Source: Strigamia acuminata (lineage: Eukaryota > Arthropoda > Chilopoda > Geophilomorpha > Linotaeniidae). From it: a DNA stretch of 64,000 nucleotides. Position 1 is the stretch's first letter; each line of letters begins with the position of its first letter. This document shows, in pieces, positions 1 to 25,249 of this stretch. The notes beneath the pieces were generated by a model. The model made no database searches. It saw nothing but the letters and a program-made list of their open reading frames with translations, and had not been told where the DNA came from. The stretch spans positions 4,464,001 to 4,528,000 of the forward strand of contig OX442319.1 of the NCBI GenBank assembly GCA_949358305.1, read 5' to 3'. Both the position numbers and the translations under genes were made by a program.

Positions 1-670
1 GGCTCGCCCCTCCGCCCGTCGGCGGGAGCCCCGACCGTCCCCCCTCTCTCTTTCGGCCGCCAAAGGATCGCCCCTCCGCTCGTCACAGATTTTTGTCAAT
101 ATTTGATGAATTTCAACAGATTTTCAGCAATATTTTACAGGACATTTCTGCTCTTTTGGATACATTTTCAAAGGTTTTATTGCTAAAATTCTGGGGAAAT
201 TTATCAAAAATTGACAAAAAATCGATGCAAGTTTTGTCAGAAACTGATAAAATCTTCTTAAACTCGTCCAACGCGCCGGCGAGTGCACATGCGGGGACAG
301 TGGGCACGTCCAGCCCGCGTGCACACTGTCAGATCGGGCGGTTTCGGGCACAGTTTGATCCGGGCAAATATCTAGCAAAACTTGCACCGATTTTTTGTCA
401 ATTTTAGACAAATTTCAGCGATATTTTACGAGACATTTCTGCTCGATTGGACACATTTCCAGGGGTTTTTTGTAAAACATTGATAAAATTCCGTGGAAAT
501 TTATCAAATATTGGCAAAATTCGGTGCTAATTTTGTCAAAAATTAGGAAAAAAAAATTTTCAAAACTTGTCCAACGTGCCGGTAAATCGAGCGCCCACAT
601 GCCTAGATAGTGCACGCCCAACCCGCCAAGGCTCGCCCCTCCGCCCGTTGGCGGGAGCCCCGGCCGTCCC

Positions 671-697
671 CTCTCTCTCTCTTTCTCTCTCTCTCTC
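671..697. repeat. CT microsatellite (representative)
   Basis: An interrupted CT run in the third GC linker of the 1,015-bp repeat. A second, uninterrupted run lies at 988-1006. Both recur in every 1,015-bp copy. On the minus strand they translate to Arg-Glu repeats, which accounts for the RERERE-like short reading frames throughout the array. Confidence 0.9.
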
Positions 698-877
698 GGG
701 CGCCCGGAGCTCGCCCCTCCGCCCGTCACCGACTTTTGACACAATTTTTGATGAAATTCAACGGAATTTTAGCAACGTTTTACAAAAAACCTGTGGAAAT
801 GTGTCCAACCGGGCAGAAATGTGTCGTAAAATGTTGCCGAAATTCTGTGAAAATTTGTCACAAATTGCCAAAAGTCG

Positions 878-1892
878 GTGCAAATTTTGTCAGAAATAGG
901 AAACAAAAAATTTAAAATTCGTCCAACGCGCCAGTAAATCGAGCGCGCCCATGCGTGGACAGTGCGCCGGCGGGAGCCCCGGCCGTCCTCTCTCTCTCTC
1001 TCTCTCGGCCGCCAAGGCTCGCCCCTCCGCCCGTCGGCGGGAGCCCCGACCGTCCCCCCTCTCTCTTTCGGCCGCCAAAGGATCGCCCCTCCGCTCGTCA
1101 CAGATTTTTGTCAATATTTGATGAATTTCAACAGATTTTCAGCAATATTTTACAGGACATTTCTGCTCTTTTGGATACATTTTCAAAGGTTTTATTGCTA
1201 AAATTCTGGGGAAATTTATCAAATATTGACAAAAAATCGATGCAAGTTTTGTCAGAAATTGATAAAATCTTCTTAAACTCGTCCAACGCGCCGGCGAGTG
1301 CACATGCGGGGACAGTGGGCACGTCCAGCCCGCGTGCACACTGTCAGATCGGGCGGTTTCGGGCACAGTTTGATCCGGGCAAATATCTAGCAAAACTTGC
1401 ACCGATTTTTTGTCAATTTTAGACAAATTTCAGCGATATTTTACGAGACATTTCTGCTCGATTGGACACATTTCCAGGGGTTTTTTGTAAAACATTGATA
1501 AAATTCCGTGGAAATTTATCAAATATTGGCAAAATTCGGTGCTAATTTTGTCAAAAATTAGGAAAAAAAAATTTTCAAAACTTGTCCAACGTGCCGGTAA
1601 ATCGAGCGCCCACATGCCTAGATAGTGCACGCCCAACCCGCCAAGGCTCGCCCCTCCGCCCGTTGGCGGGAGCCCCGGCCGTCCCCTCTCTCTCTCTTTC
1701 TCTCTCTCTCTCGGGCGCCCGGAGCTCGCCCCTCCGCCCGTCACCGACTTTTGACACAATTTTTGATGAAATTCAACGGAATTTTAGCAACGTTTTACAA
1801 AAAACCTGTGGAAATGTGTCCAACCGGGCAGAAATGTGTCGTAAAATGTTGCCGAAATTCTGTGAAAATTTGTCACAAATTGCCAAAAGTCG
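878..1892 (+). repeat. 1,015-bp tandem subunit, reference copy
   Basis: This is one of 32 complete copies in the window (landmarks recur at exactly 1,015 bp inside a unit). It alternates GC-rich linkers with three AT-rich modules at roughly 1101-1280, 1386-1590 and 1746-1892. The modules are diverged copies of one ancestor. Each holds a TTCARC/TTAGCAA...TTTTAC stretch, then AATTCyG(t)GrAAATTT, then a TCGrTGC...TTTTGTC stretch, and ends near GTCCAACGYGCCRG. The linkers carry CT microsatellites and the motif CTCGCCCCTCCGCCCGT. Copy borders fall within TCGGTGCAA of the third module, the likely place of the unequal exchange that multiplies the copies. Confidence 0.88.
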
Positions 1893-2194
1893 GTGCAAGT
1901 ATTGCTAGATTTGGGCGCATCAAACTGTGCCGAGATCTGACAGTGTCCACGCGGTTTTGAAGCGCCCACTGTCGACGCACGTGGGCGCTCAATTTACCGG
2001 CGCGTTGGACGAGTTTTGAAAAAAGTTTTTTCCTAATTTCTGACAAAACTTGCACCGAATTTTGTCAATATGTGATAAATTTCCATGGATTTTAAGCAAT
2101 GTTTTACAGAAGTCCGTCCCATCGGGCAGAAACGTCTCGTAAAATGTCGCTGAAATTCCGTGAAAATCTGTCAAAAATTGACAAAAGTTGGTGA
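1893..2194. repeat. Segment D (302 bp), with inverted monomer piece
   Basis: From about 1893 to 2085 this segment is the reverse complement of array sequence. Its complement contains CTCGTCCAACGCGCCGGTAA, then GACAGTGGGC, ACACTGTCAGATC and CACAGTTTGAT in the order seen on the plus strand at about 1273-1372. From about 2086 to 2194 the orientation returns to plus and matches the third AT module (TTTTACA, GGGCAGAAA, CTGAAATTCCGTGAAAAT). The segment is exactly 302 bp in every unit and always lies left of the GC-rich inverted-repeat block. Confidence 0.8.
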
Positions 2195-2264
2195 CCGACC
2201 CGCGGCGCGTCACGGCGCGGTCGGAGGACGGCCCTCGTCCCCAAAAACCACACTCCGGGTCACG
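2195..2264 (+). repeat. Left terminal inverted repeat, 70 bp
   Basis: It begins CCGACCCGCGGCGCG and contains CGTCCCCAAAAACCACACTC. It pairs with 3178-3247 with three mismatches. The flanking bases (TTGGTGA on the left, ACAAGAAAC beyond the right copy) give no matching target duplication. Confidence 0.85.
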
Positions 2265-2303
2265 TGGTCTCGCACTCGACTTTTTCAGTTTTCCCGTTTT
2301 CGG

Positions 2304-2330
2304 CCCGTTACGGCCAAGGACCGTAACGGG
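2304..2330. repeat. Perfect 10-bp inverted repeat, 7-base spacer
   Basis: CCCGTTACGG and CCGTAACGGG surround CCAAGGA. It lies just inside the left terminal repeat in every unit. Confidence 0.85.
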
Positions 2331-2340
2331 TCGAAAACGG

Positions 2341-2400
2341 GCCGCAACGGGTCGAAAACGGCCGCAACGGGTCGAAAACGGCCGCAACGGGTCGAAAACG
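2341..2400. repeat. 20-bp tandem repeat, three copies
   Basis: The period is GCCGCAACGGGTCGAAAACG at 2341, 2361 and 2381. Loss of one copy accounts for the 1,033-bp blocks (U4, U9, U13) compared with the 1,053-bp blocks (U0, U10-U12). Confidence 0.9.
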
Positions 2401-2404
2401 GCCC

Positions 2405-2616
2405 GCACGGGCCGTTAACGGGCCGCCGACGGTCCCGTCACAATCCCGTAACGGCTCGCACGGGCCGTTAACGGGCCGCCGACGGTCCCGTCACGATCCC
2501 GTAACGGCTCGCACGGGCCGTTAACGGGCCGCCGACGGTTCCGTAACTATCCCGTAACGGCCCGCACGGGCCGTTAACGGGCCGCCGACGGTCCCGTCAC
2601 GACCCCGTAACGGCCC
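2405..2616. repeat. 53-bp minisatellite, left array (four copies)
   Basis: Copies start at 2405, 2458, 2511 and 2564. Each contains GCACGGGCCGTTAACGGGCC, whose CCGTTAACGG core is a perfect palindrome. The right array (2837-3048) has the same orientation, so the two arrays are direct and not inverted relative to each other. Confidence 0.9.
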
Positions 2617-2630
2617 GTACGACCTCATGC

Positions 2631-2824
2631 GGGCCGTTAACGGGCCGTTAACGGGCCGTTAACGGCCCGTTAACGGCGTAAAACCAAAAACAGGATTCGA
2701 GATTAATGTCTATGAATGTTGTACGCGTTTTCATGTACGTGTTGTCGGTTGTTGATTTTTTCGATTTACACCGTCACGGCCCGTTAACGGCCCGTTAACG
2801 GCCCGTTAACGGCCCGTCAACGGC
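2631..2824. repeat. Long palindrome around the central spacer
   Basis: An 11-mer array (GGGCCGTTAAC repeated) at about 2631-2676 and its reverse complement at about 2776-2824 flank an AT-richer spacer of about 99 bp, which includes GTAAAACCAAAAACAGG. Pairing the arms by eye gives a stem of about 45 bp with two mismatches. The spacer is the least repetitive part of the block and may be the remnant core of the original element. Confidence 0.8.
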
Positions 2825-2836
2825 CCGCATGGGGTC

Positions 2837-3048
2837 GCACGGGCCGTTAACGGGCCGCCGACGGTCCCGTCACGATCCCGTAACGGCCCGCACGGGCCGT
2901 TAACGGGCCGCCGACGGTCCCGTCACGATTCCGTAACGGCTCGCACGGGCCGTTAACGGGCCGCCGACGGTCCCGTCACGATCCCGTAACGGCTCGCACG
3001 GGCCGTTAACGGGCCGCCGACGGTCCCGTCACGGTCCCGTAACGGCCT
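2837..3048. repeat. 53-bp minisatellite, right array (four copies)
   Basis: Copies start at 2837, 2890, 2943 and 2996. U3, U7 and U8 keep only two copies here, which removes 106 bp. That loss explains the 947-bp length of the U3 and U7 blocks. Confidence 0.9.
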
Positions 3049-3177
3049 TCGTTCCCGGACTTCGGCTCGCCGACGGCCCGTGCGACCTCATGCGGGCCGC
3101 TAACGGGCCGTCAACGGGCCGTTAACGGCCCGTTTTCGACCCGCTACGGCCCGTCACGGCCTGTTGGCCGTGCGACC

Positions 3178-3247
3178 CGTGACTCGGAGTGTGGTTTTTG
3201 GGGACGAGGGCCGTCCTCCGGCCGCGCCGCGACGCGCCGCGGGTCGG
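3178..3247 (-). repeat. Right terminal inverted repeat, 70 bp
   Basis: Reverse complement of the left terminal repeat, ending CGCGCCGCGGGTCGG at 3247. This end is the most constant landmark in the array and was used to set unit borders. Confidence 0.85.
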
Positions 3248-3576
3248 ACAAGAAACGACCCGGTCGGAAACCGAACCTCAGTGTCCAATCCGGCAGAAAT
3301 TGTGCGGAAGTTTAACCAAAAATGGCCAAAAGTCGGTGCAAGTTTTGCACGCAACAAACGTCCGATGTGACAGTGCCCATGCGGGTTGGACGTGCATGTG
3401 GGCGCGTGTGGGCGCTCGATTTACCGGCCCGTTGGACGAGTTAAACCAAAATTTCCCAATATCTTGCATAAATTTAAAGAAGATTTGACAGATTTCCAGA
3501 TTTTAAGCGATGTTTTACATAAGTCCGTCCCATTGCTGAAATTCCGTGAAAATTTGTCAAAAATTGACAAAAGTCT
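3248..3576. repeat. Segment E (329 bp), mixed-orientation monomer pieces
   Basis: This segment directly follows the right terminal inverted repeat. It starts with plus-strand third-module sequence (CAATC[G/C]GGCAGAAATTG, CCAAAAGTCGGTGCAAGTTT). It then switches to a minus-oriented piece at about 3380-3450, whose complement reads GTCCAACGGGCCGGTAAATC, and returns to plus orientation at about 3490. It ends with the dyad TTTGTCAA-AAA-TTGACAAA (3553-3571). Length is 329 bp in all units, counting both parts of U5. Confidence 0.8.
3553..3571. promoter_or_regulatory. Perfect 8-bp dyad with 3-base spacer
   Basis: TTTGTCAA and TTGACAAA around AAA occur once per unit in segment E, and degenerate versions occur in the AT modules. 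It could be a protein-binding dyad or simply a by-product of the AT-rich monomer. No function can be read from sequence. Confidence 0.35.
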
Positions 3577-5908
3577 GTGCAAATTTTGTCAGAAATAGGA
3601 AACAAAAAATTTAAAATTCGTCCAACGCGCCAGTAAATCGAGCGCGCCCATGCGTGGACAGTGCGCCGGCGGGAGCCCCGGCCGTCCTCTCTCTCTCTCT
3701 CTCTCGGCCGCCAAGGCTCGCCCCTCCGCCCGTCGGCGGGAGCCCCGACCGTCCCCCCTCTCTCTTTCGGCCGCCAAAGGATCGCCCCTCCGCTCGTCAC
3801 AGATTTTTGTCAATATTTGATGAATTTCAACAGATTTTCAGCAATATTTTACAGGACATTTCTGCTCTTTTGGATACATTTTCAAAGGTTTTATTGCTAA
3901 AATTCTGGGGAAATTTATCAAAAATTGACAAAAAATCGATGCAAGTTTTGTCAGAAACTGATAAAATCTTCTTAAACTCGTCCAACGCGCCGGCGAGTGC
4001 ACATGCGGGGACAGTGGGCACGTCCAGCCCGCGTGCACACTGTCAGATCGGGCGGTTTCGGGCACAGTTTGATCCGGGCAAATATCTAGCAAAACTTGCA
4101 CCGATTTTTTGTCAATTTTAGACAAATTTCAGCAATATTTTACGAGACATTTCTGCTCGATTGGACACATTTCCAGGGGTTTTTTGTAAAACATTGATAA
4201 AATTCCGTGGAAATTTATCAAATATTGGCAAAATTCGGTGCTAATTTTGTCAAAAATTAGGAAAAAAAAATTTTCAAAACTTGTCCAACGTGCCGGTAAA
4301 TCGAGCGCCCACATGCCTAGATAGTGCACGCCCAACCCGCCAAGGCTCGCCCCTCCGCCCGTTGGCGGGAGCCCCGGCCGTCCCCTCTCTCTCTCTTTCT
4401 CTCTCTCTCTCGGGCGCCCGGAGCTCGCCCCTCCGCCCGTCACCGACTTTTGACACAATTTTTGATGAAATTCAACGGAATTTTAGCAACGTTTTACAAA
4501 AAACCTGTGGAAATGTGTCCAACCGGGCAGAAATGTGTCGTAAAATGTTGCCGAAATTCTGTGAAAATTTGTCACAAATTGCCAAAAGTCGGTGCAAATT
4601 TTGTCAGAAATAGGAAACAAAAAATTTAAAATTCGTCCAACGCGCCAGTAAATCGAGCGCGCCCATGCGTGGACAGTGCGCCGGCGGGAGCCCCGGCCGT
4701 CCTCTCTCTCTCTCTCTCTCGGCCGCCAAGGCTCGCCCCTCCGCCCGTCGGCGGGAGCCCCGACCGTCCCCCCTCTCTCTTTCGGCCGCCAAAGGATCGC
4801 CCCTCCGCTCGTCACAGATTTTTGTCAATATTTGATGAATTTCAACAGATTTTCAGCAATATTTTACAGGACATTTCTGCTCTTTTGGATACATTTTCAA
4901 AGGTTTTATTGCTAAAATTCTGGGGAAATTTATCAAAAATTGACAAAAAATCGATGCAAGTTTTGTCAGAAATTGATAAAATCTTCTTAAACTCGTCCAA
5001 CGCGCCGGCGAGTGCACATGCGGGGACAGTGGGCACGTCCAGCCCGCGTGCACACTGTCAGATCGGGCGGTTTCGGGCACAGTTTGATCCGGGCAAATAT
5101 CTAGCAAAACTTGCACCGATTTTTTGTCAATTTTAGACAAATTTCAGCGATATTTTACGAGACATTTCTGCTCGATTGGACACATTTCCAGGGGTTTTTT
5201 GTAAAACATTGATAAAATTCCGTGGAAATTTATCAAATATTGGCAAAATTCGGTGCTAATTTTGTCAAAAATTAGGAAAAAAAAATTTTCAAAACTTGTC
5301 CAACGTGCCGGTAAATCGAGCGCCCACATGCCTAGATAGTGCACGCCCAACCCGCCAAGGCTCGCCCCTCCGCCCGTTGGCGGGAGCCCCGGCCGTCCCC
5401 TCTCTCTCTCTTTCTCTCTCTCTCTCGGGCGCCCGGAGCTCGCCCCTCCGCCCGTCACCGACTTTTGACACAATTTTTGATGAAATTCAACAGAATTTTA
5501 GCAACGTTTTACAAAAAACCTGTGGAAATGTGTCCAACCGGGCAGAAATGTGTCGTAAAATGTTGCCGAAATTCTGTGAAAATTTGTCACAAATTGCCAA
5601 AAGTCGGTGCAAGTATTGCTAGATTTGGGCGCATCAAACTGTGCCGAGATCTGACAGTGTCCACGCGGTTTTGAAGCGCCCACTGTCGACGCACGTGGGC
5701 GCTCAATTTACCGGCGCGTTGGACGAGTTTTGAAAAAAGTTTTTTCCTAATTTCTGACAAAACTTGCACCGAATTTTGTCAATATGTGATAAATTTCCAT
5801 GGATTTTAAGCAATGTTTTACAGAAGTCCGTCCCATCGGGCAGAAACGTCTCGTAAAATGTCGCTGAAATTCCGTGAAAATCTGTCAAAAATTGACAAAA
5901 GTTGGTGA

Positions 5909-6952
5909 CCGACCCGCGGCGCGTCACGGCGCGGTCGGAGGACGGCCCTCGTCCCCAAAAACCACACTCCGGGTCACGTGGTCTCGCACTCGACTTTTTC
6001 AGTTTTCCCGTTTTCGGCCCGTTACGGCCAAGGACCGTAACGGGTCGAAAACGGGCCGCAACGGGTCGAAAACGGCCGCAACGGGTCGAAAACGGCCCGC
6101 ACGGGCCGTTAACGGGCCGCCGACGGTCCCGTCACAATCCCGTAACGGCTCGCACGGGCCGTTAACGGGCCGCCGACGGTCCCGTCACGATCCCGTAACG
6201 GCTCGCACGGGCCGTTAACGGGCCGCCGACGGTTCCGTAACTATCCCGTAACGGCCCGCACGGGCCGTTAACGGGCCGCCGACGGTCCCGTCACGACCCC
6301 GTAACGGCCCGTACGACCTCATGCGGGCCGTTAACGGGCCGTTAACGGGCCGTTAACGGGCCGTTAACGGCCCGTTAACGGCGTAAAACCAAAAACAGGA
6401 TTCGAGATTAATGTCTATGAATGTTGTACGCGTTTTCATGTACGTGTTGTCGGTTGTTGATTTTTTCGATTTACACCGTCACGGCCCGTTAACGGCCCGT
6501 TAACGGCCCGTTAACGGCCCGTCAACGGCCCGCATGGGGTCGCACGGGCCGTTAACGGGCCGCCGACGGTCCCGTCACGATCCCGTAACGGCCCGCACGG
6601 GCCGTTAACGGGCCGCCGACGGTCCCGTCACGATTCCGTAACGGCTCGCACGGGCCGTTAACGGGCCGCCGACGGTCCCGTCACGATCCCGTAACGGCTC
6701 GCACGGGCCGTTAACGGGCCGCCGACGGTCCCGTCACGGTCCCGTAACGGCCTTCGTTCCCGGACTTCGGCTCGCCGACGGCCCGTGCGACCTCATGCGG
6801 GCCGCTAACGGGCCGTCAACGGGCCGTTAACGGCCCGTTTTCGACCCGCTACGGCCCGTCACGGCCTGTTGGCCGTGCGACCCGTGACTCGGAGTGTGGT
6901 TTTTGGGGACGAGGGCCGTCCTCCGGCCGCGCCGCGACGCGCCGCGGGTCGG
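5909..6952. repeat. Inverted-repeat block of U1 (1,044 bp)
   Basis: It has two 20-bp repeats and one extra 11-mer (four GGGCCGTTAAC copies before the spacer). That is 11 bp longer than the 1,033-bp form. U5 shows the same configuration. Confidence 0.85.
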
Positions 6953-9900
6953 ACAAGAAACGACCCGGTCGGAAACCGAACCTCAGTGTCCAATCGGGCA
7001 GAAATTGTGCGGAAGTTTAACCAAAAATGGCCAAAAGTCGGTGCAAGTTTTGCACGCAACAAACGTCCGATGTGACAGTGCCCATGCGGGTTGGACGTGC
7101 ATGTGGGCGCGTGTGGGCGCTCGATTTACCGGCCCGTTGGACGAGTTAAACCAAAATTTCCCAATATCTTGCATAAATTTAAAGAAGATTTGACAGATTT
7201 CCAGATTTTAAGCGATGTTTTACATAAGTCCGTCCCATTGCTGAAATTCCGTGAAAATTTGTCAAAAATTGACAAAAGTCTGTGCAAATTTTGTCAGAAA
7301 TAGGAAACAAAAAATTTAAAATTCGTCCAACGCGCCAGTAAATCGAGCGCGCCCATGCGTGGACAGTGCGCCGGCGGGAGCCCCGGCCGTCCTCTCTCTC
7401 TCTCTCTCTCGGCCGCCAAGGCTCGCCCCTCCGCCCGTCGGCGGGAGCCCCGACCGTCCCCCCTCTCTCTTTCGGCCGCCAAAGGATCGCCCCTCCGCTC
7501 GTCACAGATTTTTGTCAATATTTGATGAATTTCAACAGATTTTCAGCAATATTTTACAGGACATTTCTGCTCTTTTGGATACATTTTCAAAGGTTTTATT
7601 GCTAAAATTCTGGGGAAATTTATCAAAAATTGACAAAAAATCGATGCAAGTTTTGTCAGAAACTGATAAAATCTTCTTAAACTCGTCCAACGCGCCGGCG
7701 AGTGCACATGCGGGGACAGTGGGCACGTCCAGCCCGCGTGCACACTGTCAGATCGGGCGGTTTCGGGCACAGTTTGATCCGGGCAAATATCTAGCAAAAC
7801 TTGCACCGATTTTTTGTCAATTTTAGACAAATTTCAGCAATATTTTACGAGACATTTCTGCTCGATTGGACACATTTCCAGGGGTTTTTTGTAAAACATT
7901 GATAAAATTCCGTGGAAATTTATCAAATATTGGCAAAATTCGGTGCTAATTTTGTCAAAAATTAGGAAAAAAAAATTTTCAAAACTTGTCCAACGTGCCG
8001 GTAAATCGAGCGCCCACATGCCTAGATAGTGCACGCCCAACCCGCCAAGGCTCGCCCCTCCGCCCGTTGGCGGGAGCCCCGGCCGTCCCCTCTCTCTCTC
8101 TTTCTCTCTCTCTCTCGGGCGCCCGGAGCTCGCCCCTCCGCCCGTCACCGACTTTTGACACAATTTTTGATGAAATTCAACGGAATTTTAGCAACGTTTT
8201 ACAAAAAACCTGTGGAAATGTGTCCAACCGGGCAGAAATGTGTCGTAAAATGTTGCCGAAATTCTGTGAAAATTTGTCACAAATTGCCAAAAGTCGGTGC
8301 AAATTTTGTCAGAAATAGGAAACAAAAAATTTAAAATTCGTCCAACGCGCCAGTAAATCGAGCGCGCCCATGCGTGGACAGTGCGCCGGCGGGAGCCCCG
8401 GCCGTCCTCTCTCTCTCTCTCTCTCGGCCGCCAAGGCTCGCCCCTCCGCCCGTCGGCGGGAGCCCCGACCGTCCCCCCTCTCTCTTTCGGCCGCCAAAGG
8501 ATCGCCCCTCCGCTCGTCACAGATTTTTGTCAATATTTGATGAATTTCAACAGATTTTCAGCAATATTTTACAGGACATTTCTGCTCTTTTGGATACATT
8601 TTCAAAGGTTTTATTGCTAAAATTCTGGGGAAATTTATCAAATATTGACAAAAAATCGATGCAAGTTTTGTCAGAAATTGATAAAATCTTCTTAAACTCG
8701 TCCAACGCGCCGGCGAGTGCACATGCGGGGACAGTGGGCACGTCCAGCCCGCGTGCACACTGTCAGATCGGGCGGTTTCGGGCACAGTTTGATCCGGGCA
8801 AATATCTAGCAAAACTTGCACCGATTTTTTGTCAATTTTAGACAAATTTCAGCGATATTTTACGAGACATTTCTGCTCGATTGGACACATTTCCAGGGGT
8901 TTTTTGTAAAACATTGATAAAATTCCGTGGAAATTTATCAAATATTGGCAAAATTCGGTGCTAATTTTGTCAAAAATTAGGAAAAAAAAATTTTCAAAAC
9001 TTGTCCAACGTGCCGGTAAATCGAGCGCCCACATGCCTAGATAGTGCACGCCCAACCCGCCAAGGCTCGCCCCTCCGCCCGTTGGCGGGAGCCCCGGCCG
9101 TCCCCTCTCTCTCTCTTTCTCTCTCTCTCTCGGGCACCCGGAGCTCGCCCCTCCGCCCGTCACCGACTTTTGACACAATTTTTGATGAAATTCAACGGAA
9201 TTTTAGCAACGTTTTACAAAAAACCTGTGGAAATGTGTCCAACCGGGCAGAAATGTGTCGTAAAATGTTGCCGAAATTCTGTGAAAATTTGTCACAAATT
9301 GCCAAAAGTCGGTGCAAGTATTGCTAGATTTGGGCGCATCAAACTGTGCCGAGATCTGACAGTGTCCACGCGGTTTTGAAGCGCCCACTGTCGACGCACG
9401 TGGGCGCTCAATTTACCGGCGCGTTGGACGAGTTTTGAAAAAAGTTTTTTCCTAATTTCTGACAAAACTTGCACCGAATTTTGTCAATATGTGATAAATT
9501 TCCATGGATTTTAAGCAATGTTTTACAGAAGTCCGTCCCATCGGGCAGAAACGTCTCGTAAAATGTCGCTGAAATTCCGTGAAAATCTGTCAAAAATTGA
9601 CAAAAGTTGGTGACCGACCCGCGGCGCGTCACGGCGCGGTCGGAGGACGGCCCTCGTCCCCAAAAACCACACTCCGGGTCACGTGGTCTCGCACTCGACT
9701 TTTTCAGTTTTCCCGTTTTCGGCCCGTTACGGCCAAGGACCGTAACGGGTCGAAAACGGGCCGCAACGGGTCGAAAACGGCCGCAACGGGTCGAAAACGG
9801 CCCGCACGGGCCGTTAACGGGCCGCCGACGGTCCGCACGGGCCGTTAACGGGCCGCCGACGGTCCCGTCACAATCCCGTAACGGCTCGCACGGGCCGTTA

Positions 9901-10677
9901 ACGGGCCGCCGACGGTCCCGTCACGATCCCGTAACGGCTCGCACGGGCCGTTAACGGGCCGCCGACGGTTCCGTAACTATCCCGTAACGGCCCGCACGGG
10001 CCGTTAACGGGCCGCCGACGGTCCCGTCACGACCCCGTAACGGCCCGTACGACCTCATGCGGGCCGTTAACGGGCCGTTAACGGGCCGTTAACGGCCCGT
10101 TAACGGCGTAAAACCAAAAACAGGATTCGAGATTAATGTCTATGAATGTTGTACGCGTTTTCATGTACGTGTTGTCGGTTGTTGATTTTTTCGATTTACA
10201 CCATCACGGCCCGTTAACGGCCCGTTAACGGCCCGTTAACGGCCCGTCAACGGCCCGCATGGGGTCGCACGGGCCGTTAACGGGCCGCCGACGGTCCCGT
10301 CACGATCCCGTAACGGCCCGCACGGGCCGTTAACGGGCCGCCGACGGTCCCGTCACGATTCCGTAACGGCTCGCACGGGCCGTTAACGGGCCGCCGACGG
10401 TCCCGTCACGATCCCGTAACGGCTCGCACGGGCCGTTAACGGGCCGCCGACGGTCCCGTCACGGTCCCGTAACGGCCTTCGTTCCCGGACTTCGGCTCGC
10501 CGACGGCCCGTGCGACCTCATGCGGGCCGCTAACGGGCCGTCAACGGGCCGTTAACGGCCCGTTTTCGACCCGCTACGGCCCGTCACGGCCTGTTGGCCG
10601 TGCGACCCGTGACTCGGAGTGTGGTTTTTGGGGACGAGGGCCGTCCTCCGGCCGCGCCGCGACGCGCCGCGGGTCGG
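6953..10677. repeat. Satellite unit U2 (3,725 bp)
   Basis: Segment E 6953-7281, 1,015-bp copies 7282-8296 and 8297-9311, segment D 9312-9613, inverted-repeat block 9614-10677. A private A at 9136 (GGGCACCCGG) contrasts with G at the partner position 31129 in U6. Confidence 0.9.
9614..10677. repeat. Inverted-repeat block of U2 (1,064 bp)
   Basis: It carries a 31-bp partial duplication of the 53-bp repeat (CGACGGTCCGCACGGGCC junction near 9830) and the CCATCACGG variant after the spacer. Both recur in U6 and U14. U9 shares only the CCATCACGG variant. Confidence 0.85.
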
Positions 10678-13600
10678 ACAAGAAACGACCCGGTCGGAAA
10701 CCGAACCTCAGTGTCCAATCGGGCAGAAATTGTGCGGAAGTTTAACCAAAAATGGCCAAAAGTCGGTGCAAGTTTTGCACGCAACAAACGTCCGATGTGA
10801 CAGTGCCCATGCGGGTTGGACGTGCATGTGGGCGCGTGTGGGCGCTCGATTTACCGGCCCGTTGGACGAGTTAAACCAAAATTTCCCAATATCTTGCATA
10901 AATTTAAAGAAGATTTGACAGATTTCCAGATTTTAAGCGATGTTTTACATAAGTCCGTCCCATTGCTGAAATTCCGTGAAAATTTGTCAAAAATTGACAA
11001 AAGTCTGTGCAAATTTTGTCAGAAATAGGAAACAAAAAATTTAAAATTCGTCCAACGCGCCAGTAAATCGAGCGCGCCCATGCGTGGACAGTGCGCCGGC
11101 GGGAGCCCCGGCCGTCCTCTCTCTCTCTCTCTCTCGGCCGCCAAGGCTCGCCCCTCCGCCCGTCGGCGGGAGCCCCGACCGTCCCCCCTCTCTCTTTCGG
11201 CCGCCAAAGGATCGCCCCTCCGCTCGTCACAGATTTTTGTCAATATTTGATGAATTTCAACAGATTTTCAGCAATATTTTACAGGACATTTCTGCTCTTT
11301 TGGATACATTTTCAAAGGTTTTATTGCTAAAATTCTGGGGAAATTTATCAAAAATTGACAAAAAATCGATGCAAGTTTTGTCAGAAATTGATAAAATCTT
11401 CTTAAACTCGTCCAACGCGCCGGCGAGTGCACATGCGGGGACAGTGGGCACGTCCAGCCCGCGTGCACACTGTCAGATCGGGCGGTTTCGGGCACAGTTT
11501 GATCCGGGCAAATATCTAGCAAAACTTGCACCGATTTTTTGTCAATTTTAGACAAATTTCAGCGATATTTTACGAGACATTTCTGCTCGATTGGACACAT
11601 TTCCAGGGGTTTTTTGTAAAACATTGATAAAATTCCGTGGAAATTTATCAAATATTGGCAAAATTCGGTGCTAATTTTGTCAAAAATTAGGAAAAAAAAA
11701 TTTTCAAAACTTGTCCAACGTGCCGGTAAATCGAGCGCCCACATGCCTAGATAGTGCACGCCCAACCCGCCAAGGCTCGCCCCTCCGCCCGTTGGCGGGA
11801 GCCCCGGCCGTCCCCTCTCTCTCTCTTTCTCTCTCTCTCTCGGGCGCCCGGAGCTCGCCCCTCCGCCCGTCACCGACTTTTGACACAATTTTTGATGAAA
11901 TTCAACGGAATTTTAGCAACGTTTTACAAAAAACCTGTGGAAATGTGTCCAACCGGGCAGAAATGTGTCGTAAAATGTTGCCGAAATTCTGTGAAAATTT
12001 GTCACAAATTGCCAAAAGTCGGTGCAAATTTTGTCAGAAATAGGAAACAAAAAATTTAAAATTCGTCCAACGCGCCAGTAAATCGAGCGCGCCCATGCGT
12101 GGACAGTGCGCCGGCGGGAGCCCCGGCCGTCCTCTCTCTCTCTCTCTCTCGGCCGCCAAGGCTCGCCCCTCCGCCCGTCGGCGGGAGCCCCGACCGTCCC
12201 CCCTCTCTCTTTCGGCCGCCAAAGGATCGCCCCTCCGCTCGTCACAGATTTTTGTCAATATTTGATGAATTTCAACAGATTTTCAGCAATATTTTACAGG
12301 ACATTTCTGCTCTTTTGGATACATTTTCAAAGGTTTTATTGCTAAAATTCTGGGGAAATTTATCAAATATTGACAAAAAATCGATGCAAGTTTTGTCAGA
12401 AATTGATAAAATCTTCTTAAACTCGTCCAACGCGCCGGCGAGTGCACATGCGGGGACAGTGGGCACGTCCAGCCCGCGTGCACACTGTCAGATCGGGCGG
12501 TTTCGGGCACAGTTTGATCCGGGCAAATATCTAGCAAAACTTGCACCGATTTTTTGTCAATTTTAGACAAATTTCAGCGATATTTTACGAGACATTTCTG
12601 CTCGATTGGACACATTTCCAGGGGTTTTTTGTAAAACATTGATAAAATTCCGTGGAAATTTATCAAATATTGGCAAAATTCGGTGCTAATTTTGTCAAAA
12701 ATTAGGAAAAAAAAATTTTCAAAACTTGTCCAACGTGCCGGTAAATCGAGCGCCCACATGCCTAGATAGTGCACGCCCAACCCGCCAAGGCTCGCCCCTC
12801 CGCCCGTTGGCGGGAGCCCCGGCCGTCCCCTCTCTCTCTCTTTCTCTCTCTCTCTCGGGCGCCCGGAGCTCGCCCCTCCGCCCGTCACCGACTTTTGACA
12901 CAATTTTTGATGAAATTCAACGGAATTTTAGCAACGTTTTACAAAAAACCTGTGGAAATGTGTCCAACCGGGCAGAAATGTGTCGTAAAATGTTGCCGAA
13001 ATTCTGTGAAAATTTGTCACAAATTGCCAAAAGTCGGTGCAAGTATTGCTAGATTTGGGCGCATCAAACTGTGCCGAGATCTGACAGTGTCCACGCGGTT
13101 TTGAAGCGCCCACTGTCGACGCACGTGGGCGCTCAATTTACCGGCGCGTTGGACGAGTTTTGAAAAAAGTTTTTTCCTAATTTCTGACAAAACTTGCACC
13201 GAATTTTGTCAATATGTGATAAATTTCCATGGATTTTAAGCAATGTTTTACAGAAGTCCGTCCCATCGGGCAGAAACGTCTCGTAAAATGTCGCTGAAAT
13301 TCCGTGAAAATCTGTCAAAAATTGACAAAAGTTGGTGACCGACCCGCGGCGCGTCACGGCGCGGTCGGAGGACGGCCCTCGTCCCCAAAAACCACACTCC
13401 GGGTCACGTGGTCTCGCACTCGACTTTTTCAGTTTTCCCGTTTTCGGCCCGTTACGGCCAAGGACCGTAACGGGTCGAAAACGGGCCGCAACGGGTCGAA
13501 AACGGCCGCAACGGGTCGAAAACGGCCGCAACGGGTCGAAAACGGCCCGCACGGGCCGTTAACGGGCCGCCGACGGTCCCGTCACAATCCCGTAACGGCT

Positions 13601-14285
13601 CGCACGGGCCGTTAACGGGCCGCCGACGGTCCCGTCACGATCCCGTAACGGCTCGCACGGGCCGTTAACGGGCCGCCGACGGTTCCGTAACTATCCCGTA
13701 ACGGCCCGCACGGGCCGTTAACGGGCCGCCGACGGTCCCGTCACGACCCCGTAACGGCCCGTACGACCTCATGCGGGCCGTTAACGGGCCGTTAACGGGC
13801 CGTTAACGGCCCGTTAACGGCGTAAAACCAAAAACAGGATTCGAGATTAATGTCTATGAATGTTGTACGCGTTTTCATGTACGTGTTGTCGGTTGTTGAT
13901 TTTTTCGATTTACACCGTCACGGCCCGTTAACGGCCCGTTAACGGCCCGTTAACGGCCCGTCAACGGCCCGCATGGGGTCGCACGGGCCGTTAACGGGCC
14001 GCCGACGGTCCCGTCACGATCCCGTAACGGCTCGCACGGGCCGTTAACGGGCCGCCGACGGTCCCGTCACGGTCCCGTAACGGCCTTCGTTCCCGGACTT
14101 CGGCTCGCCGACGGCCCGTGCGACCTCATGCGGGCCGCTAACGGGCTGTCAACGGGCCGTTAACGGCCCGTTTTCGACCCGCTACGGCCCGTCACGGCCT
14201 GTTGGCCGTGCGACCCGTGACTCGGAGTGTGGTTTTTGGGGACGAGGGCCGTCCTCCGGCCGCGCCGCGACGCGCCGCGGGTCGG
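10678..14285. repeat. Satellite unit U3 (3,608 bp)
   Basis: Segment E 10678-11006, 1,015-bp copies 11007-12021 and 12022-13036, segment D 13037-13338, inverted-repeat block 13339-14285. It is the shortest unit class, shared with U7. Confidence 0.9.
13339..14285. repeat. Inverted-repeat block of U3 (947 bp)
   Basis: Three 20-bp repeats, and only two 53-bp repeats on the right side. The GGGCTGTCAACGG variant near 14145 is shared with U7 and U8. Confidence 0.85.
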
Positions 14286-17200
14286 ACAAGAAACGACCCG
14301 GTCGGAAACCGAACCTCAGTGTCCAATCGGGCAGAAATTGTGCGGAAGTTTAACCAAAAATGGCCAAAAGTCGGTGCAAGTTTTGCACGCAACAAACGTC
14401 CGATGTGACAGTGCCCATGCGGGTTGGACGTGCATGTGGGCGCGTGTGGGCGCTCGATTTACCGGCCCGTTGGACGAGTTAAACCAAAATTTCCCAATAT
14501 CTTGCATAAATTTAAAGAAGATTTGACAGATTTCCAGATTTTAAGCGATGTTTTACATAAGTCCGTCCCATTGCTGAAATTCCGTGAAAATTTGTCAAAA
14601 ATTGACAAAAGTCTGTGCAAATTTTGTCAGAAATAGGAAACAAAAAATTTAAAATTCGTCCAACGCGCCAGTAAATCGAGCGCGCCCATGCGTGGACAGT
14701 GCGCCGGCGGGAGCCCCGGCCGTCCTCTCTCTCTCTCTCTCTCGGCCGCCAAGGCTCGCCCCTCCGCCCGTCGGCGGGAGCCCCGACCGTCCCCCCTCTC
14801 TCTTTCGGCCGCCAAAGGATCGCCCCTCCGCTCGTCACAGATTTTTGTCAATATTTGATGAACTTCAACAGATTTTCAGCAATATTTTACAGGACATTTC
14901 TGCTCTTTTGGATACATTTTCAAAGGTTTTATTGCTAAAATTCTGGGGAAATTTATCAAAAATTGACAAAAAATCGATGCAAGTTTTGTCAGAAATTGAT
15001 AAAATCTTCTTAAACTCGTCCAACGCGCCGGCGAGTGCACATGCGGGGACAGTGGGCACGTCCAGCCCGCGTGCACACTGTCAGATCGGGCGGTTTCGGG
15101 CACAGTTTGATCCGGGCAAATATCTAGCAAAACTTGCACCGATTTTTTGTCAATTTTAGACAAATTTCAGCGATATTTTACGAGACATTTCTGCTCGATT
15201 GGACACATTTCCAGGGGTTTTTTGTAAAACATTGATAAAATTCCGTGGAAATTTATCAAATATTGGCAAAATTCGGTGCTAATTTTGTCAAAAATTAGGA
15301 AAAAAAAATTTTCAAAACTTGTCCAACGTGCCGGTAAATCGAGCGCCCACATGCCTAGATAGTGCACGCCCAACCCGCCAAGGCTCGCCCCTCCGCCCGT
15401 TGGCGGGAGCCCCGGCCGTCCCCTCTCTCTCTCTTTCTCTCTCTCTCTCGGGCGCCCGGAGCTCGCCCCTCCGCCCGTCACCGACTTTTGACACAATTTT
15501 TGATGAAATTCAACGGAATTTTAGCAACGTTTTACAAAAAACCTGTGGAAATGTGTCCAACCGGGCAGAAATGTGTCGTAAAATGTTGCCGAAATTCTGT
15601 GAAAATTTGTCACAAATTGCCAAAAGTCGGTGCAAATTTTGTCAGAAATAGGAAACAAAAAATTTAAAATTCGTCCAACGCGCCAGTAAATCGAGCGCGC
15701 CCATGCGTGGACAGTGCGCCGGCGGGAGCCCCGGCCGTCCTCTCTCTCTCTCTCTCTCGGCCGCCAAGGCTCGCCCCTCCGCCCGTCGGCGGGAGCCCCG
15801 ACCGTCCCCCCTCTCTCTTTCGGCCGCCAAAGGATCGCCCCTCCGCTCGTCACAGATTTTTGTCAATATTTGATGAACTTCAACAGATTTTCAGCAATAT
15901 TTTACAGGACATTTCTGCTCTTTTGGATACATTTTCAAAGGTTTTATTGCTAAAATTCTGGGGAAATTTATCAAAAATTGACAAAAAATCGATGCAAGTT
16001 TTGTCAGAAATTGATAAAATCTTCTTAAACTCGTCCAACGCGCCGGCGAGTGCACATGCGGGGACAGTGGGCACGTCCAGCCCGCGTGCACACTGTCAGA
16101 TCGGGCGGTTTCGGGCACAGTTTGATCCGGGCAAATATCTAGCAAAACTTGCACCGATTTTTTGTCAATTTTAGACAAATTTCAGCGATATTTTACGAGA
16201 CATTTCTGCTCGATTGGACACATTTCCAGGGGTTTTTTGTAAAACATTGATAAAATTCCGTGGAAATTTATCAAATATTGGCAAAATTCGGTGCTAATTT
16301 TGTCAAAAATTAGGAAAAAAAAATTTTCAAAACTTGTCCAACGTGCCGGTAAATCGAGCGCCCACATGCCTAGATAGTGCACGCCCAACCCGCCAAGGCT
16401 CGCCCCTCCGCCCGTTGGCGGGAGCCCCGGCCGTCCCCTCTCTCTCTCTTTCTCTCTCTCTCTCGGGCGCCCGGAGCTCGCCCCTCCGCCCGTCACCGAC
16501 TTTTGACACAATTTTTGATGAAATTCAACGGAATTTTAGCAACGTTTTACAAAAAACCTGTGGAAATGTGTCCAACCGGGCAGAAATGTGTCGTAAAATG
16601 TTGCCGAAATTCTGTGAAAATTTGTCACAAATTGCCAAAAGTCGGTGCAAATTTTGTCAGAAATAGGAAACAAAAAATTTAAAATTCGTCCAACGCGCCA
16701 GTAAATCGAGCGCGCCCATGCGTGGACAGTGCGCCGGCGGGAGCCCCGGCCGTCCTCTCTCTCTCTCTCTCTCGGCCGCCAAGGCTCGCCCCTCCGCCCG
16801 TCGGCGGGAGCCCCGACCGTCCCCCCTCTCTCTTTCGGCCGCCAAAGGATCGCCCCTCCGCTCGTCACAGATTTTTGTCAATATTTGATGAATTTCAACA
16901 GATTTTCAGCAATATTTTACAGGACATTTCTGCTCTTTTGGATACATTTTCAAAGGTTTTATTGCTAAAATTCTGGGGAAATTTATCAAATATTGACAAA
17001 AAATCGATGCAAGTTTTGTCAGAAATTGATAAAATCTTCTTAAACTCGTCCAACGCGCCGGCGAGTGCACATGCGGGGACAGTGGGCACGTCCAGCCCGC
17101 GTGCACACTGTCAGATCGGGCGGTTTCGGGCACAGTTTGATCCGGGCAAATATCTAGCAAAACTTGCACCGATTTTTTGTCAATTTTAGACAAATTTCAG

Positions 17201-18994
17201 CGATATTTTACGAGACATTTCTGCTCGATTGGACACATTTCCAGGGGTTTTTTGTAAAACATTGATAAAATTCCGTGGAAATTTATCAAATATTGGCAAA
17301 ATTCGGTGCTAATTTTGTCAAAAATTAGGAAAAAAAAATTTTCAAAACTTGTCCAACGTGCCGGTAAATCGAGCGCCCACATGCCTAGATAGTGCACGCC
17401 CAACCCGCCAAGGCTCGCCCCTCCGCCCGTTGGCGGGAGCCCCGGCCGTCCCCTCTCTCTCTCTTTCTCTCTCTCTCTCGGGCGCCCGGAGCTCGCCCCT
17501 CCGCCCGTCACCGACTTTTGACACAATTTTTGATGAAATTCAACGGAATTTTAGCAACGTTTTACAAAAAACCTGTGGAAATGTGTCCAACCGGGCAGAA
17601 ATGTGTCGTAAAATGTTGCCGAAATTCTGTGAAAATTTGTCACAAATTGCCAAAAGTCGGTGCAAGTATTGCTAGATTTGGGCGCATCAAACTGTGCCGA
17701 GATCTGACAGTGTCCACGCGGTTTTGAAGCGCCCACTGTCGACGCACGTGGGCGCTCAATTTACCGGCGCGTTGGACGAGTTTTGAAAAAAGTTTTTTCC
17801 TAATTTCTGACAAAACTTGCACCGAATTTTGTCAATATGTGATAAATTTCCATGGATTTTAAGCAATGTTTTACAGAAGTCCGTCCCATCGGGCAGAAAC
17901 GTCTCGTAAAATGTCGCTGAAATTCCGTGAAAATCTGTCAAAAATTGACAAAAGTTGGTGACCGACCCGCGGCGCGTCACGGCGCGGTCGGAGGACGGCC
18001 CTCGTCCCCAAAAACCACACTCCGGGTCACGTGGTCTCGCACTCGACTTTTTCAGTTTTCCCGTTTTCGGCCCGTTACGGCCAAGGACCGTAACGGGTCG
18101 AAAACGGGCCGCAACGGGTCGAAAACGGCCGCAACGGGTCGAAAACGGCCCGCACGGGCCGTTAACGGGCCGCCGACGGTCCCGTCACAATCCCGTAACG
18201 GCTCGCACGGGCCGTTAACGGGCCGCCGACGGTCCCGTCACGATCCCGTAACGGCTCGCACGGGCCGTTAACGGGCCGCCGACGGTTCCGTAACTATCCC
18301 GTAACGGCCCGCACGGGCCGTTAACGGGCCGCCGACGGTCCCGTCACGACCCCGTAACGGCCCGTACGACCTCATGCGGGCCGTTAACGGGCCGTTAACG
18401 GGCCGTTAACGGCCCGTTAACGGCGTAAAACCAAAAACAGGATTCGAGATTAATGTCTATGAATGTTGTACGCGTTTTCATGTACGTGTTGTCGGTTGTT
18501 GATTTTTTCGATTTACACCGTCACGGCCCGTTAACGGCCCGTTAACGGCCCGTTAACGGCCCGTCAACGGCCCGCATGGGGTCGCACGGGCCGTTAACGG
18601 GCCGCCGACGGTCCCGTCACGATCCCGTAACGGCCCGCACGGGCCGTTAACGGGCCGCCGACGGTCCCGTCACGATTCCGTAACGGCTCGCACGGGCCGT
18701 TAACGGGCCGCCGACGGTCCCGTCACGATCCCGTAACGGCTCGCACGGGCCGTTAACGGGCCGCCGACGGTCCCGTCACGGTCCCGTAACGGCCTTCGTT
18801 CCCGGACTTCGGCTCGCCGACGGCCCGTGCGACCTCATGCGGGCCGCTAACGGGCCGTCAACGGGCCGTTAACGGCCCGTTTTCGACCCGCTACGGCCCG
18901 TCACGGCCTGTTGGCCGTGCGACCCGTGACTCGGAGTGTGGTTTTTGGGGACGAGGGCCGTCCTCCGGCCGCGCCGCGACGCGCCGCGGGTCGG
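14286..18994. repeat. Satellite unit U4 (4,709 bp, three 1,015-bp copies)
   Basis: Segment E 14286-14614, copies 14615-15629, 15630-16644 and 16645-17659, segment D 17660-17961, inverted-repeat block 17962-18994. The first two copies carry GATGAACTTCAAC where most copies have GATGAATTTCAAC. The third has the second-position variant AATATTGAC. This points to duplication of the first copy rather than the second. Confidence 0.9.
17962..18994. repeat. Inverted-repeat block of U4 (1,033 bp)
   Basis: Two 20-bp repeats and four plus four 53-bp repeats. The retrotransposon target duplication begins only 5 bp beyond its right end. Confidence 0.85.
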
Positions 18995-18998
18995 ACAA

Positions 18999-19003
18999 GA
19001 AAC
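18999..19003. repeat. Target-site duplication GAAAC (left)
   Basis: GAAAC precedes the TGTAGGACAC terminus of the element. The empty site ACAAGAAACGACCCGG is present in every other unit, for example at 6953-6968. Confidence 0.95.
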
Positions 19004-19862
19004 TGTAGGACACTCGCCAAAATATTCATAAACGCAGTGGAAATAATAAAATACCCGATATATGAATGTCCTATCCAATAAATCGTCAAACGTCGGGCGG
19101 CGCGTCGTTAGGCTTTCCGGCGATGCGTATGCTCGGCGTCGTTCGCGTTGTGGAAACGTTCGCTCCTCGGGACGTGTATTCAACGTGAAATACAACGAAA
19201 ATAAATATAAAGTTTTGTAAAATAAATGTACTCACATGTGATAATGTTATATTATCACATATTAACCAATGTGAAACCAATGTCTGGGTTTCACAATCCA
19301 AGCTGTGTTCAAATGTAGTTGAATCTTAAATGTAATGTCCAAAACTGTTAGTTTTCCATGCCTAGAAAATAGGTGAAGTTGGTCCAATCTGGGCCTATTT
19401 TCATGAATGTATAATGAGGTGTCTGGCAGAAGAAAAACACACGTACACGGTTGAAAACTAAAACAGAATGAATGACTTTTATTCTGGTGACGTCATTGAA
19501 TTTACACACAGTACAAATCTTATGACAAAACGAAAAAGATAATAAATAAAGATACAATCTCTCACCACGATGATGTCATTGCTTTGACATCATCACCACA
19601 GACTAACACGTTACGAGAACATTAACACATTTCGTGTGGCGCCCTCGTACCGCATACAAGCAACAACACTATAACATTTTACATCAAATAAGCCGAAATT
19701 CATCCAGTTTATACAATAAACGATCAACATATATCAAACCATTTACTGACACAAATATGCTTTCACAATTTCGACTTAAGACTCTAAATTCTCGTATTTA
19801 AACAATGTTATACAATTCAATTATCAGATTTTAACGTCTAACAATTATCTCTTTATGTAACA
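19004..19862 (-). repeat. 3' LTR (859 bp)
   Basis: In element orientation it begins TGTTACATAAAG and ends GAGTGTCCTACA. By direct reading it is identical to the 5' LTR copy. Its promoter region would face leftwards into satellite unit U4, so read-out transcription of the array is conceivable. Confidence 0.95.
19569..19594. repeat. 10-bp perfect hairpin in LTR
   Basis: GATGATGTCA and TGACATCATC flank a 6-base spacer. The copy in the 5' LTR is at 24951-24976. Each arm contains TGATGTCA, a near-match to the CRE/ATF half-palindrome. Confidence 0.7.
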
Positions 19863-19874
19863 ATCACCTCCTTA
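19863..19874 (-). promoter_or_regulatory. Polypurine tract
   Basis: In element orientation TAAGGAGGTGAT sits directly before the 3' LTR. This is the expected position and composition of the plus-strand DNA primer, with AAGGAGG as its purine core. Confidence 0.8.
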
Positions 19875-19897
19875 AATGTTACACGTTATATCTTGAT

Positions 19898-24319: not shown

Positions 24320-24361
24320 TTTTCCGTCGTATCGTCGCTATTTTCCGTCGATATCGGGTTT

Positions 24362-24382
24362 TAGCAGAACCACCCTCTGCTA
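24362..24382. repeat. 7-bp hairpin overlapping the primer-binding site
   Basis: TAGCAGA and TCTGCTA flank ACCACCC. In the genomic RNA this could mask or present the primer-binding site. Confidence 0.6.
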
Positions 24383-24385
24383 CCA
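24368..24385 (-). promoter_or_regulatory. Primer-binding site for initiator tRNA-Met
   Basis: In element orientation TGGTAGCAGAGGGTGGTT directly abuts the 5' LTR. It matches the complement of the 3' end of metazoan initiator tRNA-Met at 17 of 18 bases. The plant initiator form would begin TGGTATCAGAG. Minus-strand cDNA synthesis would start here. Confidence 0.88.
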
Positions 24386-25244
24386 TGTAGGACACTCGCC
24401 AAAATATTCATAAACGCAGTGGAAATAATAAAATACCCGATATATGAATGTCCTATCCAATAAATCGTCAAACGTCGGGCGGCGCGTCGTTAGGCTTTCC
24501 GGCGATGCGTATGCTCGGCGTCGTTCGCGTTGTGGAAACGTTCGCTCCTCGGGACGTGTATTCAACGTGAAATACAACGAAAATAAATATAAAGTTTTGT
24601 AAAATAAATGTACTCACATGTGATAATGTTATATTATCACATATTAACCAATGTGAAACCAATGTCTGGGTTTCACAATCCAAGCTGTGTTCAAATGTAG
24701 TTGAATCTTAAATGTAATGTCCAAAACTGTTAGTTTTCCATGCCTAGAAAATAGGTGAAGTTGGTCCAATCTGGGCCTATTTTCATGAATGTATAATGAG
24801 GTGTCTGGCAGAAGAAAAACACACGTACACGGTTGAAAACTAAAACAGAATGAATGACTTTTATTCTGGTGACGTCATTGAATTTACACACAGTACAAAT
24901 CTTATGACAAAACGAAAAAGATAATAAATAAAGATACAATCTCTCACCACGATGATGTCATTGCTTTGACATCATCACCACAGACTAACACGTTACGAGA
25001 ACATTAACACATTTCGTGTGGCGCCCTCGTACCGCATACAAGCAACAACACTATAACATTTTACATCAAATAAGCCGAAATTCATCCAGTTTATACAATA
25101 AACGATCAACATATATCAAACCATTTACTGACACAAATATGCTTTCACAATTTCGACTTAAGACTCTAAATTCTCGTATTTAAACAATGTTATACAATTC
25201 AATTATCAGATTTTAACGTCTAACAATTATCTCTTTATGTAACA
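24386..25244 (-). repeat. 5' LTR (859 bp)
   Basis: Upstream LTR relative to transcription, so it should hold the active promoter. It reads as identical to 19004-19862 over its whole length, with the same offset (5,382 bp) at every landmark checked. Confidence 0.95.
24858..24877 (-). promoter_or_regulatory. Putative LTR promoter: CRE palindrome plus TATA-like box
   Basis: In element orientation the CRE consensus TGACGTCA (24877-24870) is followed four bases later by AATAAAAG (24865-24858), which could act as a TATA element. The arrangement suggests CREB/ATF-responsive transcription. AATAAA can also serve as a polyadenylation signal, so the TATA assignment is tentative. Confidence 0.45.
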
Positions 25245-25249
25245 GAAAC
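25245..25249. repeat. Target-site duplication GAAAC (right)
   Basis: It directly follows the TGTAACA terminus and is followed by GACCCGGTCGG, which resumes segment E without loss of bases. Confidence 0.95.

Follow-up and report, generated by a model that had tools for sequence, protein, structure and literature searches.

The foldback transposons FB and Galileo of Drosophila share one structure (i.e., a loop flanked by long inverted arms that consist of tandem repeats) and belong to different superfamilies, MuDR and P, respectively; Galileo, as a P-type element, generates a 7-bp target duplication. The element described here has comparable arms but differs from both in superfamily and duplication, being apparently of the piggyBac type. 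Its target is TTAA, and neither the 8- to 10-bp duplication of FB and Tetris (Mutator type) nor the duplication typical of Galileo was found. A preliminary description of the locus had likened it to FB and Galileo, a likeness that does not extend to lineage, given the TTAA target and the linked piggyBac-type transposase. Foldback elements are also treated in the accessible text of PMC4079207, which describes Tetris, a foldback transposon of Drosophila virilis (TIR-220 satellite), as likewise having long inverted arms with internal tandem repeats, and reports that repeats within the element were amplified into satellite-like arrays. According to the same text, Tetris is flanked by 8- to 10-bp duplications, its authors suggested a Mutator affiliation, no transposase was found, and its arrays comprise up to 66 copies of ~220 bp, whereas the unit here is ~3.7 kb. 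Unlike the Tetris arrays in that account, the array here is still bounded by the ends of its element and was subjected to an empty-site test. Tetris is nevertheless the nearest precedent for the satellite step.

Elements of the piggyBac superfamily target TTAA (PMC9587614, accessible text), carry a DDE_Tnp_1_7 transposase, and include very large members, as here. Teratorn, a giant piggyBac-superfamily element of fish, is fused with a herpesvirus (PMC6431247 and PMC10175614, accessible parts); foldback arms and a satellite interior, both present here, go unmentioned in the accessible part of its description (PMC6431247). Kolobok as a whole also generates TTAA duplications, and the accessible text of PMC9587614 describes head-to-tail multimers of KolobokP with target duplications at the outer ends, but KolobokP differs from the element here in its 5'-RR ends, long terminal direct repeats, 3- to 5-bp duplications, and transposase. 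In MITE-derived satellites (e.g., miDNA4 of Xenopus tropicalis), the monomer was born in a non-autonomous DNA transposon, as here, but the elements are small, unlike the large transposon described below (PMC9659126, accessible text); the words piggyBac and TTAA are absent from the main text of that review as available to us. Our literature survey, which covered mostly titles and few subscription papers, did not turn up any report of piggyBac-type ends bounding a satellite array, and the titles found under the genus name Strigamia included no work on this satellite.

We analyzed a window of 64 kb (i.e., the whole stretch C8:4,464,001-4,528,000; no N) in a 237.5-Mb genome. The host is very probably the centipede Strigamia acuminata. 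Its COI sequence (contig C157) is 84% identical to that of the centipede Mecistocephalus marmoratus, the best named match, 83% to those of horseshoe crabs, and 81 to 82% to those of other centipedes, values that by themselves do not separate these groups. A block of ~1 kb recurs through the window. Very probably, this block corresponds to the palindromic inner region of a large, foldback-armed transposon of the piggyBac superfamily, the inner arms of which were amplified into a satellite, and the window lies in a 111-kb copy inserted at TTAA in a Copia gene.

The anatomy of the block (Table 1) agrees with the preliminary description, which had reported a block of ~1 kb with 70-bp inverted ends, 53-bp and 20-bp repeats, and an AT-richer center within a long palindrome, recurring through the array. 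The two ends of block 1 are inverted and identical at 67 of 70 positions without gaps, a match that cannot be attributed to chance, since a back-of-envelope estimate (~0.28 match per base) gives a p value near 1e-32 per comparison. Block 1 matches its own reverse strand at 68% over positions 1 to 1053, and a 996-base piece of it, folded as single-stranded DNA, gave a z value of -17.1 (20 shuffles). Tandem Repeats Finder called the 53-bp unit across positions 2397 to 3047, with 11-bp palindromic runs flanking the center. The window holds 14 complete blocks, every one with 67/70 ends; they are 947 to 1220 bp long and spaced 3694 to 4896 bp apart, except for one spacing of 9940 bp that contains a nested Copia element. 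The 20 bases to the left of the block are identical in all 14 cases, and the 20 bases to the right are identical in 13, the remaining one being interrupted by the Copia element. No target duplication adjoins any of these 14 blocks, and no tRNA or Rfam match was found within the 64-kb window; together with the genome size and the arthropod COI, this speaks against a prokaryotic or phage source.

Table 1. Coordinates of the features of the 64-kb window
Feature	Position	Strand	Description
Satellite array, ~3.7-kb units	1..64000	+	Interior of one TTAA-bounded unit, ends outside the window
Block 1	2195..3247	+	Imperfect palindrome over its full length; transposon inner arms, probably fused
Left 70-bp inverted repeat	2195..2264	+	Occurs subterminally in both arms of the transposase-bearing element (mismatches/70: 2 in one arm, 3 in the other)
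20-bp tandem repeat	2321..2426	+	5.2 copies, Tandem Repeats Finder
53-bp minisatellite, left half	2397..2625	+	
Central AT-richer spacer	2680..2775	+	
53-bp minisatellite, right half	2829..3045	+	
Right 70-bp inverted repeat	3178..3247	-	
Rest of unit 1	3248..5908	+	Diverged modules in both orientations and 1,015-bp direct repeat; 2,057/2,661 bp match transposon arms
Block 2	5909..6952	+	
Block 3	9614..10677	+	
Block 4	13339..14285	+	Short, 947 bp
Block 5	17962..18994	+	Adjoins nested Copia
Nested Copia LTR element	19004..25244	-	Inserted into array
Block 6	27902..28945	+	
Block 7	31607..32670	+	
Block 8	35332..36278	+	Short, 947 bp
Block 9	39955..41174	+	Long, 1220 bp; 273-bp internal tandem duplication, two centers
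Block 10	44851..45883	+	
Block 11	48545..49597	+	
Block 12	52259..53311	+	
Block 13	55973..57025	+	
Block 14	59687..60719	+	
Block 15	63381..64000	+	Truncated by window edge

With 15 blocks in 64 kb and stretches that are 99 to 99.8% alike, the window has the long, homogeneous head-to-tail arrangement of satellite DNA. A 15.4-kb stretch is repeated in the array at 99.84% identity (window positions 3251 to 18641 and 25244 to 40654; offset, ~22 kb); therefore, the array also grew by steps larger than one unit. The nested Copia element is very young, with LTRs identical over 859 bp, a GAAAC target duplication, and an open frame of 1473 aa. Its polyprotein scores above the cut-off for a methyl-CpG-binding domain (PF01429; residues 873 to 933; E value, 4e-7) between the integrase and the reverse transcriptase, and the protein has only distant matches (25 to 33% identity).

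The array containing the window is bounded by a T5 end (C8:4,429,692) and a T3 end (C8:4,540,833), with TTAA beside each. This element spans 111,142 bp, the sequence of which was read except for ~40 kb. When the outer flanks were joined in script at a single TTAA, they gave one unbroken Copia frame (...LDKTLKKIGFKPSPEDPCLYVIF...), and the array thus reads as a precise TTAA insertion; an insertion that duplicated TTAA would account directly for this frame, and the join serves as the empty-site test. The satellite lies between the T5 and T3 ends of the element, contrary to one of the two alternatives offered earlier, by which the satellite had captured the element.

The exact length of the array hinges on the assembly of near-identical repeats, such as the 15.4-kb stretch, and the unit count may be off. 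It is very unlikely, however, that the 111-kb extent as such is an assembly artefact (i.e., a false join or a wrong number of units). Neighboring units are indeed ~99% alike, and contig joins do exist, as the published contig N50 of 1.8 Mb and the 343 contigs imply (PMC10556566, accessible part); against this, the window contains no N, many unit-length variants serve as markers, the nested Copia element provides an anchor in the middle, and the same arrangement is seen, at a separate TTAA site, in a compact element of 9.3 kb, the units of which are satellite-like.

Material of the block is not restricted to this array, since at up to 3 mismatches the genome contains 1,994 matches (976 forward, 1018 reverse) to 35 bases of the central spacer. 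Among the ~100 matches listed, all on C1, there are isolated places as well as other tandem arrays; confinement to the present array, which would have spoken against a transposon origin, was thus not observed. Eight of these places were read. In isolated copies (e.g., L041), the homology continues beyond the 70-bp repeats through the arms and further modules up to a sharp end, CCCCAAGG/TTAA (a slash marks the boundary), which abuts unrelated sequence. The T5 end reads TTAA/CCTTGGGG... and the T3 end reads ...CCGAAGG/TTAA (in fuller form, TTAA/CCTTGGGGTATGTG... and ...CACTCGCTTCCGAAGG/TTAA, respectively). A search with TTAA/CCTTGGGGTATGTGTGCGG gave 120 and 125 genome matches on the two strands for T5 (up to 1 mismatch), and one with GGTGCACTCGCTTCCGAAGG/TTAA gave 91 and 101 for T3 (up to 3 mismatches). 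At least 57 of these 192 T3 matches are exact including TTAA; the 100 listed matches comprise these 57, a further 16 with one mismatch, and 27 with two, and many of the 27 are tandem junctions with ATAG in place of TTAA. A different sequence, ending in CCGAGCTCGC/TTAA, was considered as the other end of the element and rejected, as the T3 search and the tandem units of L047 show CCGAAGG.

The outer flanks are unlike one another in most copies read. TTAA flanks both ends in 6 of the 7 elements checked, a proportion that is not unbiased because TTAA was part of the pattern by which most of these loci were located; the seventh, the C80 element, has TTAA and TTAT, and L040 (ATAT at T5, TTAA at T3) and one T5 end in L039 (TTAT) are further exceptions among the copies read. 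Members of the piggyBac superfamily have short terminal inverted repeats of ~12 to 19 bp. Here, T5 (CCTTGGGG) and the reversed T3 (CCTTCGGA) agree at 6 of the first 8 bases, and a BLAST comparison did not extend the match at the tips; for this superfamily, such terminal repeats are weak.

The position of the 70-bp repeats within the element is best seen in a transposase-bearing copy of ~31.7 kb (C1:51.72-51.76 Mb), which has TTAA at both ends. The left 70-mer of the block occurs there 289 to 358 bp from the T5 end and 762 to 831 bp from the T3 end, inward-facing in both cases, with 2 mismatches in one arm and 3 in the other; the best collinear inverted match between the arms (85%) starts at 281 bp from the T5 end and at 754 bp from the T3 end. 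The 70-bp repeats are therefore subterminal and not termini, as had been assumed. Like foldback elements, this element has long inverted arms of tandem repeats, but its arms are not terminal. On our reading of L041 and L048, the left 70-mer in the window may represent two neighboring arm repeats fused by deletion. The arms also account for most of the satellite. Of a 3,714-bp satellite unit, 3,110 bp match the arms (E value, ≤1e-6), including the portion outside the block given in Table 1, while the reversed unit, used as a control, matches them over 0 bp.

These results bear on the reading that the block is a mobile foldback element in its own right (FB- or Galileo-like), the ends of which are the 70-bp repeats and which was incorporated into a satellite at a later time. 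Its inverted ends, internal tandem repeats, and loop, together with the many copies of its center elsewhere, would suit such an element. However, homology in the dispersed copies read runs past the 70-bp repeats into longer arms, the same 70-mers are subterminal in a transposase-bearing element, and the 20-base flanks of the blocks in the window are constant and show no abutting duplication. Among the small part of the genome matches that was read, no copy ends at the 70-bp repeats with a duplication. We consider this reading highly improbable. The earlier interpretation of the block as transposon-derived and foldback-like stands; the rank assigned to it (i.e., an element with 70-bp termini) and the direction of capture do not.

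Elements at separate TTAA sites form a size series, from 4.4 kb without satellite units through 9.3 kb with two short-form units to 111 kb. The smallest (4,427 bp, in L054) retains both arms, and no PF13843 match is listed for it. The 9.3-kb element (C1:59.44 Mb) has TTAA at both ends. In the 5.3 kb of it that was read, the unit of the window is matched from two starts 2,679 bp apart (98.8 to 99.5%); the first of these units contains one copy fewer of the 1,015-bp submodule, and a further block junction follows 2,679 bp on. The first 1,400 bp of this element are 99.8% identical to those of the 111-kb element, and those of the C80 element are 100% identical; inward of T5, short and long copies alike have most of the initial 1.3 kb in common.

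To survey such elements, we defined T5/T3 pairs as adjacent, same-oriented ends among the matches listed, which gave 61 pairs covering 2.16 Mb of the 237.5 Mb. Among the ends listed, pair sizes range from 3.7 to 138 kb (the largest, on C80, lacks a clean TTAA), and the pairs with a transposase match measure 31.7 to 105 kb. The best 40 of 934 satellite-block candidates, a set selected by similarity, show complete identity over 1,053 bp and lie on 11 contigs. At least 18 of the 40 are inside T5/T3 pairs, in six elements, and 29 of the 40 have a T3 end within 140 kb on the expected side among the ends listed.

Several results weaken the idea of two unrelated events, in which a pre-existing array was caught between the T5 and T3 of different copies that were joined by recombination. 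In its favor, repeat-rich regions contain many T5 and T3 ends, and head-to-tail multimers and half copies exist. Nevertheless, a Copia frame runs without interruption across a single TTAA when the two sequences outside the 111-kb unit are joined, the orientation of the satellite relative to T5 and T3 is the same in all six bracketed elements, and the satellite unit itself consists of transposon arm sequence. Such a coincidence is improbable to a high degree.

Profile PF13843 (piggyBac DDE_Tnp_1_7) gave 131 matches in the genome and 0 in 14 control genomes (116 of 346 candidates scored). We grouped the matches by strength and profile range into sets of 13, 52 (profile positions 32 to 148), and 44, excluding 22 further rows that are mostly second pieces of the same genes. 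At least 23 of the 52 are located inside T5/T3 pairs (22 pairs), all 23 antisense to the T5-to-T3 direction, in contrast to 0 of 13 and 0 of 44 in the other groups among the ends listed. The other 29 of the 52 are unbracketed among the ends listed, 8 of them on contigs without a listed end. Since not all ends are listed and many contigs are short, the bracketed counts for the transposase (23/52) and for the blocks (18/40) are lower bounds; partial and rearranged copies certainly exist as well. An exon reading from the ~31.7-kb copy matches PF13843 at 5.4e-22 and is the only one of nine readings from that copy with a Pfam family above the cut-off. Membership in the piggyBac superfamily fits both the TTAA target and this linked transposase. 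Among readings of at least 110 aa with a G+C content below 58% from ten loci, we recognized no transposase by eye, and Copia-type frames were present. A PHD-finger-like reading lies near the transposase (L061:2387-2713; below the Pfam cut-off) and may hint that the large element carries more than a transposase.

The preliminary description had noted neither a transposase nor a target duplication and had suggested looking for a transposase gene with the same termini; a piggyBac-type transposase linked to the ends and evidence of a TTAA target site have now been found, the gene being located between T5 and T3 in other copies. That the transposon instead belongs to Kolobok, the other TTAA-targeting superfamily, with the nearby piggyBac transposases unrelated to it, is extremely improbable: the TTAA target would suit Kolobok and the head-to-tail multimers recall those of KolobokP, but Kolobok ends at TTAA read 5'-RR ... 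YY-3' (PMC9587614, accessible text) and those here begin with 5'-CC, and the 23 matches of one PF13843 group that lie between the ends all have one orientation.

On the basis of these data, we propose a stepwise origin of the satellite from the piggyBac-type transposon. The transposon has long subterminal inverted arms of GC-rich 53-bp minisatellites around a spacer, with the transposase gene located between the arms in large copies (~32 to 105 kb end to end). Internal deletions would unite the arms and produce short foldback-like copies (~4 kb) without a transposase, presumably mobilized in trans. Arms composed of repeats and palindromes may be prone to deletion and unequal exchange, which would yield short copies first and satellite units afterward. 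In one lineage, the inner arms including the block would have been amplified head to tail, probably by unequal exchange, into units of ~2.7 kb and then of ~3.7 kb.

A further, tentative suggestion, which we regard as possible but rather doubtful, is that whole arrays, tens of kilobases to over 100 kb in size, are moved intact by a cut-and-paste transposase of the piggyBac type acting in trans, in place of growing after insertion, so that the satellite would spread between chromosomes and be homogenized as one founder array seeds many sites. Transport of such a loaded element is possible in principle, because engineered Sleeping Beauty, piggyBac, or P systems have moved inserts of 100 to 200 kb (PMC6431247, accessible part).

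The array thus looks like the swollen interior of a transposon, and a satellite can here be traced to the mobile element that probably made it, which touches on the old questions of how satellites originate and how one satellite reaches several chromosomes. One genome contains the transposase-bearing source together with a small foldback derivative, a 9.3-kb element in which there are few units, and the 111-kb element. All of them share one pair of ends, and the insertion site of the 111-kb element is precise, so that the path from transposon arm to satellite can be tested step by step. The Tetris precedent would thereby be joined by a case from a different superfamily and from an arthropod only distantly related to Drosophila.

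Several minor observations concern the arrangement of copies. Elements often occur head to tail. On C1, 18 junctions of this kind were found, and their T3-to-T5 linkers are all equally long; the linker in L047 (L047:89-154) reads ATAG...TTAA, which would suit the spread, as a unit, of a multimer that had captured one flank. On C115 (73406-211026), T3 ends are arranged partly mirror-wise, with T3 pairs 11,974 bp apart on both sides and on opposite strands, which may reflect a large palindrome or a false join. L040, L050, and L052 have 3.1 to 3.9 kb in common at 97 to 99% identity, including a stretch between two blocks (~L040:2200-4130) in which no gene was recognized by eye. Finally, another piggyBac-like group (C9:2744343, C5:13633158, and 42 more) has matches embedded in open frames as long as 1,950 aa, and several of its copies are located near contig ends (C8:5218, C4:3566, C142:378, and C145:98).
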